Shown one piece after another: positions 42,317 through 49,144 of a DNA stretch of 64,000 nucleotides. The number at the start of each line of letters is the position of its first letter. Position 1 is the stretch's first letter. This stretch comes from Rosettibacter firmus (lineage in GTDB: Bacteria; Bacteroidota; Ignavibacteria; Ignavibacteriales; Melioribacteraceae), in contig NZ_JAYKGJ010000002.1 of assembly GCF_036860695.1 (NCBI RefSeq), forward strand, positions 378,001 through 442,000. The letters are read 5' to 3'. The notes beneath the pieces were generated by a model. The model was given only the letters and a program-made list of their open reading frames with translations. It did no database searches and was not told where the DNA came from. Both the position numbers and the translations under genes were made by a program.

Positions 42317-43102
42317 TTAAAAATTACAAGCTTCACTAAATTCATTAATAATCCTGACTGTATTATCTAACTTATTATTATCAAGAATTGTTTTAATTAT
42401 TTTGCTGCCGACAATTACACCATCACAATAAGGAGCAAAGTTTTTTATATCTTCTGATTTGGATATACCGAAGCCAATAAGCATTTTATTTTTTTCAATT
42501 ACCGAATATGTTCTTTTTAAATTATTATATGTATCCTCTCCAAATGAATCTTTTATACCAGTTGTTCCAGTTACACTAACACAATAAACAAATCCTTTAC
42601 TTTTATGATCAATCAACTTAATTCTATCATTTGTTGAAGTAGGAGTTACAAGAAGTATAACATCTAAGTTATAAATATCGCAATCAAAGAAATAATCATA
42701 TTCTTCGAGTGGAACATCAGGTACAATAATTCCTTTTACACCAGCAGAAGATGCATCTTTAAAAAAATTATTTTTATTGTAGTGATTGATTGGGTTAGCA
42801 TATCCCATTAATATAATTGGTTTTTCAGAATAGTTTGCTAATTGTTCAGCATATTTTAATACATCTTTTGTAGTTGTATTATTTTTTAATGCAATAGTAG
42901 ACGAAGTTTGAATAATTGGTCCATCAGCTAATGGATCACTGAAAGGGATACCTAATTCAAGTATATCGGCACCAGCATCTAAAACAGATTTTGCTAATTC
43001 TATAAAATTATTTTTATCTGGAAAACCAGCTGTTAAAAATATTGATAATGCTTTTCGGTTTTTTTTATTTATTGTGTCAATGTAATTATGAATAAAACTC
43101 AT
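42317..43102 (-). CDS. trpA: Tryptophan synthase alpha subunit
   Basis: Cleaves indole-3-glycerol phosphate to indole and glyceraldehyde 3-phosphate in the alpha2beta2 complex with TrpB. 261 residues, a TIM barrel. [13 protein letters not shown], the catalytic Glu in [17 protein letters not shown] (with the following conserved Asp), [26 protein letters not shown] and [12 protein letters not shown] are the family motifs; [15 protein letters not shown] and [10 protein letters not shown] close the phosphate site. The ATG overlaps the trpB stop (ATGA). It is the last gene of the operon. Confidence 0.97.
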
Positions 43103-44301
43103 TTATAGTCTTCCTTAAAATTTTCCATGTAAGTAGATAAATCTTTATCGCCTCTTCCACTTAAGTTAATTACAATTATTTCATCCTTAGAAGTTTGTTG
43201 AATAAATTTTTCTAAATAAGCAATTGCATGTGCACTTTCAAGAGCAGGTAAAATTCCTTCAAGCTTCGTTGTAAGATAGGCAGCTTTTAGTGCTTCTTCA
43301 TCAGTAATAGAAAAATATTGAACACGACTTTGATCTTTTAGAAATGAATGTTCAGGCCCAACTCCAGGATAATCTAATCCTGCTGAAATTGAATGAACTT
43401 CTGAAACCTGACCATTTTCATCTTGCAACAGATATGTTAACATACCCTGAAAAATTCCAGGTGAGCCCAGACTTAAAGTTGCGCAGTGTTTATTGGTATT
43501 CAATCCATAACCAGCAGCTTCGACACCAATAAGTTTAACATTCTCATCATTTATAAAAGGATAAAAAATACCAATAGCATTTGAACCCCCACCAACACAG
43601 GCAACAATATAATCGGGTAATCTTTTTTCGATTGATAAAATTTGTTCTTTTGTTTCTTTTCCAATTATAGATTGAAAATCTCTTACAAGCATTGGATATG
43701 GATGTGGTCCAACTACAGAACCAATAATGTAATGTGTATCTCGAACATTAGTTACCCAATCTCTAATTGCTTCGTTTGTAGCATCCTTTAATGTTTTACT
43801 TCCAGATGTAACTGGAATGACTTCTGCACCGAGTAATTTCATTCGAAATACATTTGGCTTTTGTCGCTCTATATCAAGCTCTCCCATATAAACAACACAT
43901 TTAATACCAAATTTAGCACACATAGTTGCAGTAGCAACTCCATGTTGTCCAGCTCCTGTTTCTGCTATTATTCTTTGCTTTCCCAATCTTTTTGCAATTA
44001 AAATTTGTCCAATTGCGTTGTTTAATTTATGTGCTCCAGTGTGACATAAATCTTCTCGTTTTAAATAAATTTTTGCTTTGCCATAATATTTTGTTAGTCT
44101 ATCTGCATAAGTTAATGGAGTAGGTCTTCCATTGTATTCTCTTTGAAGTTGATTATATTCATTAATAAAATCAGGGTCATTCTTTAAATCATTATAAGTT
44201 GTTTCAAGTTCGTATAAAGCAGGTATTAAAGTTTCTGGAACGAAACGTCCACCATAAATTCCAAATTTTCCTGTTGTATCCGGTAGATTATAATTTTTCA
44301 T
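43099..44301 (-). CDS. trpB: Tryptophan synthase beta subunit
   Basis: PLP enzyme joining indole and serine to make tryptophan. I place the start at the ATG at 44301 ([18 protein letters not shown]), giving 400 residues; the frame also opens at a TTG at 44325. Key motifs: [12 protein letters not shown], the PLP lysine in [39 protein letters not shown] and the C-terminal [13 protein letters not shown]. It is a TrpB1-type protein that pairs with the adjacent TrpA. The 184-bp gap to trpF contains a palindromic element, the only large gap in the operon. Confidence 0.97.
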
Positions 44302-44364
44302 CTTATACTCATTTTTATGTTGCAATAAAGTTTTTGCTTATTAACATTATGTTTTAAATAATTG

Positions 44365-44411
44365 CTCGAGCCCTTAAGACATTCATTTTGTGAATGCTCA
44401 GAGGGCTCGAG
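44365..44411 (-). repeat. Palindromic element in the trpF-trpB gap
   Basis: CTCGAGCCCT (44365-44374) and AGGGCTCGAG (44402-44411) are perfect 10-bp inverted arms; inside them CATTCA (44380-44385) and TGAATG (44391-44396) form a second stem around TTTTG. A GC-richer tail with ATGC/GCAT (44420-44432) follows. The composition is unlike the surrounding AT-rich sequence. It has no T run on the - strand, so it does not look like a simple terminator; a REP-like or inserted palindromic repeat is more likely. Confidence 0.7.
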
Positions 44412-44485
44412 AGGAGTGTATGCACCGCGCATAAAGCTATTATTTATTTTGTTTGTAAATATTCTTTTTTGAGTATAGTTATTCA

Positions 44486-45100
44486 TTAACTATATCTTAA
44501 ATTATTTATAACTCTAAAAAATTCTTTTAATTTATCTGGGTCTTTTTTACCTGGCTCTTTCTCAACAGAAGAAGAAAGATCAACACCTTGAGGTTTAATG
44601 TTATTAAAAATGTATTCGACATTTTCAACAGAAATTCCACCAGCTAAAATTATATTATTTCTTATTTGTGCAGGAATTAAATCCCATTTAAATTTTTTGC
44701 CTGTCCCACCAAATGAATCATTTGAATAAGTATCAAGAAGAAAACTGCAGTTTTGAAATTTATTCAGTATTGAAAAATCAAATTCATCATTAATTCTAAA
44801 ACTTTTAATGACAGGTAAATTAATTTGGTTTACAAATTCAGAATTTTGTTCGCCATGTAATTGTACAGCATTTAAACCAAGTGATCTGGATATTTCATTT
44901 ATTTCATTTAATGAATTATCCACAAAAACACCAACCTTTAATACAAAAGCTGGTAATTTTTTTATAATATCTTTTGCACTTGAAAAATCAATATATCTTT
45001 TACTTTTTTCATAAAAAACAAATCCAAGTGCATCAGCACCTAAATTGCAACATAGTAAAGCATCTTCAAGATTTGTTATTCCACAAATTTTAACTCTCAT
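44486..45100 (-). CDS. trpF: Phosphoribosylanthranilate isomerase
   Basis: Converts N-(5-phosphoribosyl)anthranilate to CdRP, third step of the pathway. 204 residues, TIM barrel. VKICGITNLEDALLC carries the catalytic Cys; GADALGFVFYEKSKRY, LNAVQLHGEQ, DTYSNDSFGGTGKKFKWDL (catalytic Asp) and LAGGISVENV follow, with GVDLSSSVEKEPGKKDPDKL at the phosphate site. It begins 13 bp after trpC. Confidence 0.97.
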   Translation of the reverse strand: MRVKICGITNLEDALLCCNLGADALGFVFYEKSKRYIDFSSAKDIIKKLPAFVLKVGVFVDNSLNEINEISRSLGLNAVQLHGEQNSEFVNQINLPVIKSFRINDEFDFSILNKFQNCSFLLDTYSNDSFGGTGKKFKWDLIPAQIRNNIILAGGISVENVEYIFNNIKPQGVDLSSSVEKEPGKKDPDKLKEFFRVINNLRYS

Positions 45101-45113
45101 GGTTTTACTGTTA

Positions 45114-45902
45114 TTATATATAAAGTTGTTTTTGAAAATCGTTTATGCTTTTCTCTAAATTATGTGATTTCATGAAATGTTCTCCAATTAAAACTGCATC
45201 AACATTTGCTTGTTTTAGTTTTGTAATGTCATCATCTGTATTAATTCCGCTTTCTGAAACTTTGATCACATCATCAGGTAGATATTTAGTTAATTGTATT
45301 GTAGTCTTTATATCTGTGTGAAACGATTCGAGGTTTCTATTATTTATTCCGATAATTTTATTTTTATTAAAATCAATTTTATCCAGTTGAGAAGGGGAAT
45401 GAAATTCGAGTAACACTTCCAGTCCACATTCATGTGCTACAGATGTAAGCTCTTGAATTTGATTTTTAGAAAGTATTTCGGCAATAAGTAAAATTGCATC
45501 TGCTCCGAATGCTTTTGCTTCATAAATTTGTATTTCATCTATTATGAAATCTTTTCTTAATAATGGAACTGTTTTGAATTGTGCAATGTCCTTCAAATAA
45601 TTTATATCACCATTAAAGAATTTTCTATCTGTTAAAATAGAAATAGCTTCTACTGAACAACTCATATAACTTTTTGCAATATCAATATGATTAAAGTTAT
45701 TGATTAAAATTCCTTTAGATGGACTTGCTTTTTTAATTTCTGCAATTAATGAAATTTTATTATTCCTTTTTAATGCATTGAATAATGATATTGTTTTATT
45801 TTCAAAATATTTTTCGTTCTTAAATAAGGAGATTGTGAATTTTTGTTTTAAATTTCTTACTTCTTCTTTTTTTTCAAGAAGAATTTTGTCAAGAAAATTC
45901 AT
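45114..45902 (-). CDS. trpC: Indole-3-glycerol phosphate synthase
   Basis: Ring closure of CdRP to indole-3-glycerol phosphate. 262 residues. Family motifs: LIAEIKKASPSKGIL (catalytic Glu and Lys), ISILTDRKFFNGDINYLKDI, VPLLRKDFIIDEIQIYEAKA, ADAILLIAEIL, IIGINNRNLESFHTD and VSESGINTDDDITKL. The ATG overlaps the trpD stop in an ATGA. Confidence 0.97.
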   Translation of the reverse strand: MNFLDKILLEKKEEVRNLKQKFTISLFKNEKYFENKTISLFNALKRNNKISLIAEIKKASPSKGILINNFNHIDIAKSYMSCSVEAISILTDRKFFNGDINYLKDIAQFKTVPLLRKDFIIDEIQIYEAKAFGADAILLIAEILSKNQIQELTSVAHECGLEVLLEFHSPSQLDKIDFNKNKIIGINNRNLESFHTDIKTTIQLTKYLPDDVIKVSESGINTDDDITKLKQANVDAVLIGEHFMKSHNLEKSINDFQKQLYI

Positions 45903-46915
45903 GAATATTTTTCTCCGAAAGTTTTTAATGCAAGGAGTTTTTCATAAGCTTTACCAGATAAAATTGATTCTTCTGCTGCTGTTTTACAATCATTAAAATT
46001 GTTTGAGTAATTTGCTACGTACAATGCCATAGCTGAATTTGCAGCAATAACATAATAAGCATCATTTTTAATTTTATCTTTTAATACAGATAAAATTATT
46101 TCTGCATTTTTATCTATTGAATTGCTCTCTAAATTTTTCTTATCAATTTTATTATAGCCAAAAAATTCGTGTGTAATTTTATAATTTTTTACGATTGAAT
46201 TATGTAACTCGAAAACATTGGTTTCGTCTGTAAGTGAAATTTCATCTAAACTATTATCTGTACAAACAAAGCAAACTTTTTCCATATTTAAATGTTGAGA
46301 AGCTTTAGCCATTAGTTCAGCTGCTTTATTGTTGAATGTACCAATCAACTGTTTTTTTGTATTTGCTGGATTTGTTAAAGGTCCTAAAATATTAAATACA
46401 GTTCTCGTATTTAATTCTCGGCGTACTTCTGCAGCATATTTCATTGCAGGATGATATAGAGGAGCAAATAAAAATGTAATTCCAATTTTATTTAATGCTT
46501 CTTCGGCAACAGGAGGTGTAAGATTTATATTTAATCCCAGATAAGTTAGAATATCTGCACTTCCACATTTACTTGATATCGATTTATTACCATGTTTAGC
46601 GACTTTAACTCCACACCCGGCAACAACAAATGCAGTAGCTGTAGAAATATTAAAAGTATTGGAACCATCGCCTCCTGTTCCACAAACATCAATTGTATTT
46701 TCATCAGAATTAATTTTAATGCTTTTACTACGCATTGCTTTTACGAAACCTGCTACTTCTTCTGGAGTTTCGCCTTTTGTTTTAAGAGCAAGTAAAAATC
46801 CAGCTATTTGTGAATTATTACATGCACCATTCATAATGGCAGTCATTGCATTGTATGCTTCTTCAATAGTTAAGTTGTTTCCAGATGTAATTTTTTCAAT
46901 GTATTCTTTTATCAT
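45899..46915 (-). CDS. trpD: Anthranilate phosphoribosyltransferase
   Basis: Transfers phosphoribose from PRPP to anthranilate. 338 residues. The PRPP site is DVCGTGGDGSNTFNISTATA; further motifs are VAKHGNKSISSKCGSADIL, FLFAPLYHPAMKY and RTVFNILGPLTNPA. The N-terminal helical dimerisation domain (ITSGNNLTIEEAYNAMTAIM) is present. The ATG overlaps the trpG stop (ATGA), so the two are translationally coupled. Confidence 0.97.
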   Translation of the reverse strand: MIKEYIEKITSGNNLTIEEAYNAMTAIMNGACNNSQIAGFLLALKTKGETPEEVAGFVKAMRSKSIKINSDENTIDVCGTGGDGSNTFNISTATAFVVAGCGVKVAKHGNKSISSKCGSADILTYLGLNINLTPPVAEEALNKIGITFLFAPLYHPAMKYAAEVRRELNTRTVFNILGPLTNPANTKKQLIGTFNNKAAELMAKASQHLNMEKVCFVCTDNSLDEISLTDETNVFELHNSIVKNYKITHEFFGYNKIDKKNLESNSIDKNAEIILSVLKDKIKNDAYYVIAANSAMALYVANYSNNFNDCKTAAEESILSGKAYEKLLALKTFGEKYS

Positions 46916-47478
46916 AGCTCAACCCAATTTTTAATTAATTGATAACCCACTTTTGTTAATATCGATTCTGGATGAAATTGAATCCCTTCGATTGGAAAAT
47001 ATTTATGTCTTATACCCATAATTATATCGTCTTGTGTGTAAGCGGAAATTTCCAGAACATCTGGTAATGTATCTTTTTCAATAATTAATGAATGATATCT
47101 ACCACCATTAAAATTTTGTTCAATATTTTTGAAAATTGTTTTGCCATCATGAATTATTTGAGATGTTTTACCATGCATTAAGTAAGGTGCATTGATAATA
47201 TTTCCACCATAACAATAACCAATAGTTTGATGACCCAGACAAACTCCAAGGATAGGTGTATTAGGTCCAAAATTTTTTATAACATCTATTGTAATTCCAG
47301 TATCTTTTGGTGTACCTGGTCCAGGCGATATAACAATTTTATCTGGATTTAATTTTTTTATTTCATCAATAGTAGTTTTATCGTTACGTTTTACGATTAT
47401 ATCGTCTGTAAATTGTCCGATTAATTGAACAAGGTTGTATGTGAATGAATCGTAATTGTCAATAACTAAGATTTTCAT
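46912..47478 (-). CDS. trpG: Anthranilate synthase component II (glutamine amidotransferase)
   Basis: Supplies ammonia from glutamine to TrpE. 188 residues from the ATG at 47478, which follows AGAGG; a TTG just upstream is less likely. Class I amidotransferase motifs: VIDNYDSFTYNLVQ, ISPGPGTPKDTG, the nucleophile Cys in ILGVCLGHQTIGYCYGG, and the His-Glu pair in GIQFHPES. It overlaps the 3' end of trpE by 20 bp. Confidence 0.96.
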   Translation of the reverse strand: MKILVIDNYDSFTYNLVQLIGQFTDDIIVKRNDKTTIDEIKKLNPDKIVISPGPGTPKDTGITIDVIKNFGPNTPILGVCLGHQTIGYCYGGNIINAPYLMHGKTSQIIHDGKTIFKNIEQNFNGGRYHSLIIEKDTLPDVLEISAYTQDDIIMGIRHKYFPIEGIQFHPESILTKVGYQLIKNWVEL

Positions 47479-48937
47479 CAATTACCTCTGCACAATTAAG
47501 TGCGTTAATTAAAACTGCCGATTTATTTTTTACTTCTTTTAGTTCAAGTTCTGGTTTACTATCAGCTACAATTCCAGCACCTGCTTGCCAGTAAATTTTA
47601 TTTTTTGTAGCAAATAAAGTTCTAATTGCAATACACATATCTAAATTCCCACTAAAATCGATATAGCCAACTGCACCTGCATAAATTCCACGTTTAATTT
47701 TTTCGTAATCATTAATCAATTGAATTGCTCTTATTTTTGGTGCACCTGTTACAGTACCAGCAGGGAAAGATGCTTTTAATGCATCAATACAGTCTACATC
47801 ATCTTTTAATATTCCTTCAACTCTCGAGACAATATGCATAACATGCGAAAATCTGTGTATCTTCATTCTTTCACTTATCTTAACTGTACCAAGTTTGCAA
47901 AATCTACCAAGATCATTTCTTGCTAAATCAACAAGCATTACGTGTTCAGCAATTTCTTTTGGATCATTCAGTAAATTATTTTCCAATTCTAAATCTTCTT
48001 CTTCTGTTTTTCCTCGTCTTCTTGTGCCAGCAATTGGAAGGATTTCTGCTTTTCTATTTTTTACTTTTAATAAATCTTCTGGTGAAGTACCGATAATTTT
48101 AATATTGTTATCAAATTCCATAAAGTACATATAAGGAGATGGATTTATCATTCGTAATGCTCTGTAGACATTAAAGGGATCTCCTTCGTAATTTGCTTCG
48201 AATCTTTTTGATAGAACAATTTGAAATACATCACCATTGTAAATATTTCTTTTTGATGTTTTTACAAGTTCACAAAATTCTTCTTCTTCATTATGAGTGA
48301 GTGGGAGGGGATTTGATTTAAAATTGGATTTGTAATCAATCTTTTTATTTAATAATTCTTTTAATTTGTTTATCTCTTCTTTAGCAGCTTCATATTTATT
48401 TTGAATATTATTTTTATCAGTGCAATCAACATTATGAATTAATATAATTTGATGTTTAAAATGATCAAATATTATAAGTGAATTATATAATCCAAGAATT
48501 GAATCTGGAGCTATGCTTTCTAATTCTGTATTATAATTTATACTTTCTTCGATTAATGAAATATTATCAAAACCAATGTAACCGACAAGTCCACCAGTAA
48601 AATAGGGAAGTTCATCTATTTTAGGATATTCAAATTTCTTAATTAATTCCTTTAGATAATCAAATATATTTTTATTGATGATTTCCGTATCAGTTGAATT
48701 TTTAATTGAGATTAATTTATAATTGTTAGAAACTAACATTGATGGGTTTACACCAATAAAAGAGTAACGTGCTAATCTACCAATCCCTTCAACAGATTCA
48801 AGTAAAAATGAAGATGAGTTATTATTCCTGATTTTTAAATAAGCAGAAACAGGTGTTAATAAATCTGCAGCAATACGTTCGTATACAGGAACAATATTGT
48901 ATTTGTTAGATAATTCTAAAAATTTTTTATAATCCAT
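47459..48937 (-). CDS. trpE: Anthranilate synthase component I
   Basis: Chorismate to anthranilate, the committed step. 492 residues. The feedback tryptophan site is suggested by SSFLLESVEGIGRLARYSFI near residues 40-60; the chorismate-binding half carries PFNVYRALRMINPSPYMYFM, IIGTSPEDLLKV, LPIAGTRRRGKTEEED, LVDLARNDLGRF, HIVSRVEGIL, FPAGTVTGAPKIRAIQLI and GAVGYIDFSGNLDMCIAIRT. It is the first structural gene, 77 bp after the leader-peptide stop and 19 bp after the attenuator hairpin. AAAGGG lies upstream of the ATG. Confidence 0.97.
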   Translation of the reverse strand: MDYKKFLELSNKYNIVPVYERIAADLLTPVSAYLKIRNNNSSSFLLESVEGIGRLARYSFIGVNPSMLVSNNYKLISIKNSTDTEIINKNIFDYLKELIKKFEYPKIDELPYFTGGLVGYIGFDNISLIEESINYNTELESIAPDSILGLYNSLIIFDHFKHQIILIHNVDCTDKNNIQNKYEAAKEEINKLKELLNKKIDYKSNFKSNPLPLTHNEEEEFCELVKTSKRNIYNGDVFQIVLSKRFEANYEGDPFNVYRALRMINPSPYMYFMEFDNNIKIIGTSPEDLLKVKNRKAEILPIAGTRRRGKTEEEDLELENNLLNDPKEIAEHVMLVDLARNDLGRFCKLGTVKISERMKIHRFSHVMHIVSRVEGILKDDVDCIDALKASFPAGTVTGAPKIRAIQLINDYEKIKRGIYAGAVGYIDFSGNLDMCIAIRTLFATKNKIYWQAGAGIVADSKPELELKEVKNKSAVLINALNCAEVIDENLSY

Positions 48938-48955: not shown

Positions 48956-48990
48956 AAAAAACCCTTCTCAGTGACTACTAAGAAGGGTTT
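48956..48990 (-). terminator. Intrinsic terminator of the trp attenuator
   Basis: In RNA order, AAACCCTTCT (48990-48981) pairs with AGAAGGGTTT (48968-48959); the stem continues inward with TAGT/ACTG (one G-U pair) around an AGUC tetraloop, giving 14 bp. A run of six U (48961-48956, overlapping the stem end), then G and four more U, follows. This is a classic intrinsic terminator, located between the leader peptide and trpE. Confidence 0.9.
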
Positions 48991-49014
48991 CAATTATAAA
49001 ATATACATATTACT

Positions 49015-49104
49015 TCAAGTCACTGAGATAGTGCGGATATAAACTTGCCACCACCACCAAGCCCAGACTGAATTGAAGTAATATGTAACTTTTCTTGTTT
49101 TCAT
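49015..49104 (-). CDS. trpL: trp leader peptide, five Trp codons
   Basis: A 29-residue ORF, MKTRKVTYYFNSV then WAWWWW then QVYIRTISVT. The Trp codons are 49065-49063 and 49059-49048. Five Trp among 29 residues, four in a row, in front of trpE and followed by complementary RNA segments and a terminator, identifies it as a sensing leader. It stops at TGA 25 bp before the terminator stem. There is no Shine-Dalgarno sequence: the ATG lies only ~9 bp after the -10-like box, so the mRNA is probably leaderless or nearly so. Confidence 0.9.
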   Translation of the reverse strand: MKTRKVTYYFNSVWAWWWWQVYIRTISVT

Positions 49105-49112
49105 AACGTGTG

Positions 49113-49144
49113 CAAATATAGAAAATTAAAATATACTTTGTCAA
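49113..49144 (-). promoter_or_regulatory. trp operon promoter
   Basis: On the - strand TTGACA (49144-49139) is separated by 18 bp from TATATT (49120-49115). The same -10 element reads TATATTTG (49120-49113), matching the Bacteroidota TAnnTTTG consensus. Transcription would start near 49109-49106, a few bases before the leader-peptide ATG at 49104. Confidence 0.75.

Follow-up and report, generated by a model that had tools for sequence, protein, structure and literature searches.

The trp operon of Rosettibacter firmus is preceded by what we interpret as a ribosome-mediated trp attenuator whose antiterminator would capture the loop and the inner 3′ arm of the terminator hairpin; we give this model as a whole a probability of about 0.82. 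Classical attenuators use the 5′ arm of the terminator as the partner of region 2, and the usual teaching is that the antiterminator holds this arm before the 3′ arm has been made. The sequence shows the parts of the R. firmus leader and that they are conserved; it also shows that the 2:3 helix covaries with loop and 3′ arm and that region 2 keeps a constant spacing to the last Trp codon. An earlier note on this DNA described an attenuator here and missed the real difference, which is the pairing with loop and inner 3′ arm rather than with the 5′ arm.

Organization of the trp leader and operon

All features described below lie on the minus strand of a 64,000-nucleotide stretch of DNA, which we call the window and whose positions we use throughout. 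A predicted promoter is formed by the −33 element TTGACA (49139 to 49144; 11/12 match), of which TTGAC is kept at equal spacing in most relatives, and the −7 element TATATTTG (49113 to 49120), which is of the Bacteroidota TAnnTTTG type (consensus and −7 placement in the phylum from PMC7366714) and ends 8 nt before the leader ATG. The arrangement recurs among the relatives, where 36 of 48 leaders carry a TTGA / TAnnTTTG-type promoter ending 2 to 13 nt (median, 8) upstream of the leader ATG. Given this short gap and the −7 placement in the phylum (PMC7366714), the 5′ UTR would measure only a few nucleotides, suggesting that the leader mRNA, with its start site placed by means of the predicted promoter, is probably near-leaderless; 5′ UTRs of less than 10 nt are rare in Bacteroides (3.7%; PMC7366714).

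The leader ORF (49015 to 49104) comprises 29 codons, translates to MKTRKVTYYFNSVWAWWWWQVYIRTISVT, and ends in UGA. As the earlier note had stated, five of its codons specify Trp; these are codons 14 and 16 to 19 (49048 to 49065), which form the predicted stall site. Region 1 (49073 to 49087) and region 2b (49004 to 49018) are the 5′ and 3′ strands of a protector hairpin, 1:2. The 5′ strand of the antiterminator, region 2 (UCUCAGUGACU; 49018 to 49028), begins 20 nt downstream of the last Trp codon; its partner is region 3 (AGUCACUGAGA; 48966 to 48976), the antiterminator 3′ strand, which consists of the terminator loop (48976 to 48973) and the inner 3′ arm. The intrinsic terminator itself, found by terminator scan and by folding, is a hairpin of 15 bp with a 4-nt loop (48958 to 48991) and a U run at 48956 to 48961; the earlier note was right about its presence and its place before trpE, and 1 bp short (14 bp) in its length.

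The first structural gene of the operon is trpE (47459 to 48937; Pfam PF04715 and PF00425), and the genes trpG through trpB follow it (43099 to 47481), with trpG at 47481 to 46912 (Pfam GATase). The nearest named TrpE records are those of Melioribacter MAGs, at 81 to 83% TrpE identity. By sequence recognition, we take the ORFs at 46915 to 45899, 45902 to 45114, 45100 to 44486, and 44325 to 43099 to be trpD, trpC, trpF, and trpB, respectively. The gap between trpF and trpB holds a strong palindrome, CTCGAGCCCT...AGGGCTCGAG (44354 to 44410), which occurs as a single copy in the genome and is thus not an obvious repeat element.

Folding of the 169-nt leader, a check proposed in the earlier note, gave an energy of −58.5 kcal/mol, far more stable than that of shuffled sequences (−32.1 ± 3.4 kcal/mol; z = −7.73; 0/200), and the terminator was the sole terminator-like match in 701 bases scanned, where 0.2 were expected. 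Both helices that the earlier note had noticed reappeared, and its coordinates proved correct to within about a base, namely, for the 15-bp pairing of region 1 with region 2b, which was recovered exactly (shuffle P = 0.005) and is part of the MFE structure, and the 11-bp pairing of region 2 with region 3. In this species the two share one nucleotide only (49018), so that hairpin 1:2 and the antiterminator exclude each other by way of the hairpin’s inner pairs, which are weaker.

Conservation of the leader and its identity as a Trp attenuator

We gathered the regions upstream of trpE at genus, family, and order level. Of 49 order-level loci, 48 have trpE preceded by a Trp-rich leader ORF and then a terminator, the exception being L042, which has a short ORF with Trp-Ile-Trp. 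Outside the Trp run the leader peptides differ between relatives, as is expected of leader peptides, which vary apart from their regulatory codon run. The earlier note had named such a comparison as a check. The Trp run and the antiterminator are kept, with compensatory changes; hairpin 1:2, the protector hairpin of an E. coli-type trp attenuator, is strong in this species and significant in only 17 of 48 relatives, making it less conserved than the antiterminator.

No homologue of TrpR or TRAP was found in the genome (positive controls, E. coli and B. subtilis), and no Rfam family, the known amino-acid leader families included, matched within the window at the gathering threshold; by E-value there were only weak chance matches far below gathering (PyrR, 26.4 of 54 bits). 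The locus has a leader ORF rich in codons for the pathway product (5 Trp in 29 codons), an intrinsic terminator before the first structural gene, and an alternative helix, 2:3, that shares bases with the terminator, covaries, and stands at a constant distance from the last Trp codon; that the ribosome itself controls this helix is what we infer from these features. Because leader and terminator are kept in 48 of 49 loci and neither TrpR nor TRAP was found, we identify the locus as a ribosome-mediated trp attenuator, and it appears nearly certain, judged from sequence, that the trp operon is under ribosome-mediated Trp attenuation in general. The E. coli-like attenuation that the earlier note had proposed is borne out to this extent, with leader, terminator, and competing helix present in 48 of 49 order-level loci.

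Choice of terminator arm

The consensus of region 2 in the trp leaders of the order is CUCAGUGAAU. We scored its helices with the terminator loop included; splitting them at the border of arm and loop gave ambiguous results for his leaders. Against the loop plus 3′ arm, region 2 reached a mean helix score of 17.7; shuffles averaged 11.5 and partners exchanged between species 14.1, and the leader’s own partner outscored the exchanged one in 43 of 48 leaders. Against the 5′ arm, the score was 10.3 and that of shuffles 10.2, which amounts to no signal across the order.

A covariation test on a structure-blind alignment of 35 leaders pointed in the same direction. The 2:3 helix, which the earlier note had read in the single sequence, had 90.7% of its cells paired, a covariation of 0.308, and 21 compensatory cells, compared with 6.6 ± 2.0 in shuffles (0/500 reaching this count), where, the sequences being related, the compensatory changes represent fewer independent events than cells. 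Sliding the helix by one to three columns reduced the paired cells to 31 to 46%, with about a third left after a shift of a single column. For orientation, the terminator in the same alignment was 94% paired with 15 compensatory cells, and the alternative pairing with the 5′ arm stood at 59.3%, against 59.1% in shuffles. In the column pair 29:102, region 2 offers a C-G pair in 28 of 35 leaders; the corresponding pair of the terminator itself, 90:102, is a U-G wobble in 18 of them all. As region 2 has C-G where the 5′ arm wobbles, it appears to have been selected to match the 3′ arm and to be no mere copy of the 5′ arm.

Of the order’s trp leaders, 45 could be scored, and 35 of these were centered on the 3′ side. 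About 31 of the 35 we take as genuine; in L030, L031, L047, and perhaps L019, the helix seems to be due to chance. The exceptions pair best with the 5′ arm (L020, L024, L040, and L057), are able to use both arms (L025, L027, L028, and L044), or are centered on the loop (L029, L046, and L050). Sequestration of the terminator 5′ arm by the antiterminator, as in E. coli-type attenuators, was not what we found, and we rejected pairing of region 2 with this arm as a general rule, both its score and its pairing being at shuffle level. Taken as a whole, these comparisons make it likely that it is the loop of the terminator, with the inner 3′ arm, that the antiterminator captures.

The same procedure applied to E. 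coli trpL returned the 5′ arm, with region 2 starting 15 nt past the last Trp codon. All 25 of the trp leaders compared from other families of the phylum were centered on the 5′ arm, and the median start of their region 2 was 16 nt beyond the last Trp codon. Of the his leaders from the same order, 13 could be scored, and 11 of these were centered on the 5′ side (inner 5′ arm plus loop). Since E. coli, all 25 of these trp leaders, and most his leaders of the order use the 5′ arm, the swap of arms looks specific to the trp leader of this order.

Several other leaders came to light in this survey. Trp-rich leaders with ordinary 5′-arm attenuators are widespread in the other families of the phylum (L059 to L094), and some of them lie a few hundred bases away from trpE. 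The R. firmus genome also has a His-containing leader ORF, MKVKVLHFNHHLLLKKSAGKF, with a terminator upstream of hisG (L099, 1211 to 1330; G000:C2 near 147434), whose region 2, GCGCCGG, pairs with the inner 5′ arm and loop; many relatives likewise have His-rich leaders upstream of hisG. Family f36, which belongs to the same class, has trp leaders with a long terminator loop; here the main partner of region 2 is this loop together with the inner 5′ arm (L171 and L172) or the inner 3′ arm (L173). Scored with the loop, two of the three are of the 5′-arm-plus-loop kind, and we rejected f36 as an example of the 3′ type; possibly, its leaders are intermediate between the two designs. Simple-pattern searches for ilv and thr leaders gave no matches.

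Spacing of region 2

The start of region 2 lies a median of 21 nt from the last Trp codon (interquartile range, 20 to 23), and nearly all scored members of the order fall between 19 and 24 nt. Relative to the leader stop codon, the start varies from −16 to +17 across relatives, so the antiterminator strand lies within the leader ORF in some of them and wholly past the stop in others. Because the distance to the Trp codons is fixed and that to the stop is variable, the ruler appears to be the stalled ribosome and not the stop codon. The earlier note had singled out two traits as distinguishing this leader from that of E. coli, namely, that the antiterminator strand lies inside the reading frame and that a ribosome reaching the stop hides it. 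Neither survives this comparison: the position inside the ORF is variable and incidental, leaders of other families with 5′-arm antiterminators likewise have their strand within the reading frame (at about −18), and in E. coli a ribosome at the stop codon hides region 2 as well.

Alternative interpretations

The locus could be a trp attenuator of the ordinary E. coli type, its region 2 being the partner of the terminator 5′ arm. The overall logic and the parts are alike, L001 has a weak 5′-arm complementarity (GAAG:CUUC), and L020, L024, L057, and L040 do pair best with that arm. We nevertheless regard this as unlikely, given that pairing with the 5′ arm is at shuffle level across the order whereas pairing with loop plus 3′ arm covaries strongly, and that the same pipeline correctly finds the 5′ arm in E. 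coli and in 25 of 25 leaders from elsewhere in the phylum.

Region 2 might also be a decoy, a duplicated lookalike of the 5′ arm, with only hairpin 1:2 and the terminator acting (for example, through coupling or pausing) and no antiterminator at all. The resemblance of region 2 (CUCAGU) to the upper 5′ arm (CUUAGU) would fit, as would the preference for the terminator at the end of equilibrium folding (see below). A decoy, however, would have no reason to complement loop bases that no terminator needs, to be Watson-Crick where the 5′ arm wobbles, or to keep a fixed distance to the last Trp codon, and we consider it very improbable. Hardly credible to us is another kind of leader RNA (a T-box, a riboswitch, or a protein-binding leader) with a fortuitous Trp-rich ORF: the leader is structured, but nothing more speaks for it, the Rfam matches being weak chance ones below gathering, neither TRAP nor TrpR was found in the genome, and the Trp-rich ORF is kept in 48 of 49 loci while the flanking peptide varies.

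Proposed mechanism

We propose that the ribosome-mediated trp attenuator with loop and 3′-arm capture works as follows. Without translation, region 1 would pair with region 2b, the terminator would form, and the operon would be off. With ample charged tRNA-Trp, the ribosome would reach the UGA codon (49017 to 49015) and cover region 2, again allowing the terminator to form. When Trp is short, the ribosome would stall on the first Trp codons and, given that region 1 lies just upstream of these, would by usual footprints cover region 1, leaving region 2, about 20 nt beyond the last Trp codon, free. Region 2 would contact the loop bases first, since these emerge before any base of the 3′ arm, and would next take the inner 3′ arm before the terminator 5′ arm can do so. 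After that, only a strained pseudoknot, lacking a linker on one side, would allow the outer stem to close, and the polymerase would pass the U run, turning the operon on. We infer where the ribosome stands, in which order the steps follow, that region 2 wins kinetically, and that the pseudoknot acts as a block.

We folded partly exposed transcripts at equilibrium, placing the ribosome at the Trp codons. While the last 6 to 10 nt of the hairpin were hidden, the mean probability was 0.64 to 0.79 for the antiterminator and 0.01 to 0.20 for the terminator, the antiterminator being dominant until the last ∼5 nt. With the hairpin fully exposed, the terminator prevailed (0.94 versus 0.02 for the antiterminator); the classical leaders of the phylum retain somewhat more antiterminator at this stage (0.20). 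As equilibrium prefers the terminator at full exposure, antitermination in this leader would have to be kinetic, acting through steric blocking. More likely than not, in our view, is a lineage-specific design: while transcription is under way, the antiterminator would nucleate on the terminator loop and go on to capture the inner 3′ arm. This design appears to have replaced, or evolved from, the 5′-arm design of trp leaders found elsewhere in the phylum.

Comparison with known attenuators and implications

The R. firmus leader shares with E. coli trpL a short Trp-rich leader ORF, a terminator before trpE, competing 1:2, 2:3, and 3:4 pairings, and a region 2 that is hidden by a ribosome at the stop. 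In E. coli, however, region 2 takes the 5′ arm and has its start 15 nt beyond the last Trp codon, whereas here it takes the loop and inner 3′ arm, has its start 20 nt beyond that codon, and belongs to a probably near-leaderless mRNA. The trp leaders in other families of the phylum likewise have a Trp-rich peptide, a terminator, and trpE, often with region 2 in the ORF, but their region 2 (of the GCAGUGGG type) takes the 5′ arm in 25 of 25 cases. The his leaders of the same order (L095 to L116, including L099 of R. firmus itself) follow the same ribosome logic with a His-rich leader before hisG, and their region 2 often starts 17 to 20 nt past the last His codon; unlike that of the trp leaders, it (GCGCCGG or GUGUCGG) sits on the opposite arm, pairing with the inner 5′ arm plus loop.

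Both Proteobacteria and Actinobacteria are known to use leader-peptide attenuation (PMC1262725 and PMC2965389). The classical trp attenuators of Actinobacteria (PMC1262725) also have repeated UGG codons and a competing antiterminator and terminator; they differ in their conserved complementary triples, gGCC-rGCy-GGCC, and a search of the text of that paper gave no case of loop or 3′-arm capture. Within the same broad phylum group, passages of the main text of PMC9723704 offer clues for leader-peptide attenuation of amino-acid operons in Flavobacterium psychrophilum, and thus suggest it for Flavobacterium; these passages give no architecture at the level of terminator arms. In the open-access literature searched, we found no description of a trp attenuator in Ignavibacteria and none of an antiterminator on the 3′ side or loop of a terminator, and we provisionally regard loop and 3′-arm capture as novel.

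If it takes loop and 3′ arm, the antiterminator has to win while just a few nucleotides are being transcribed. If our model is true, an antiterminator need not hold the 5′ arm in advance but can win a last-moment kinetic race. The ordinary his leaders of the same genomes, together with the trp leaders elsewhere in the phylum, provide matched natural pairs for the effects of timing and strand choice on termination. For the lineage itself, the R. firmus leader would extend leader-peptide control of trp to the Ignavibacteria, with a leader whose translation is probably near-leaderless.
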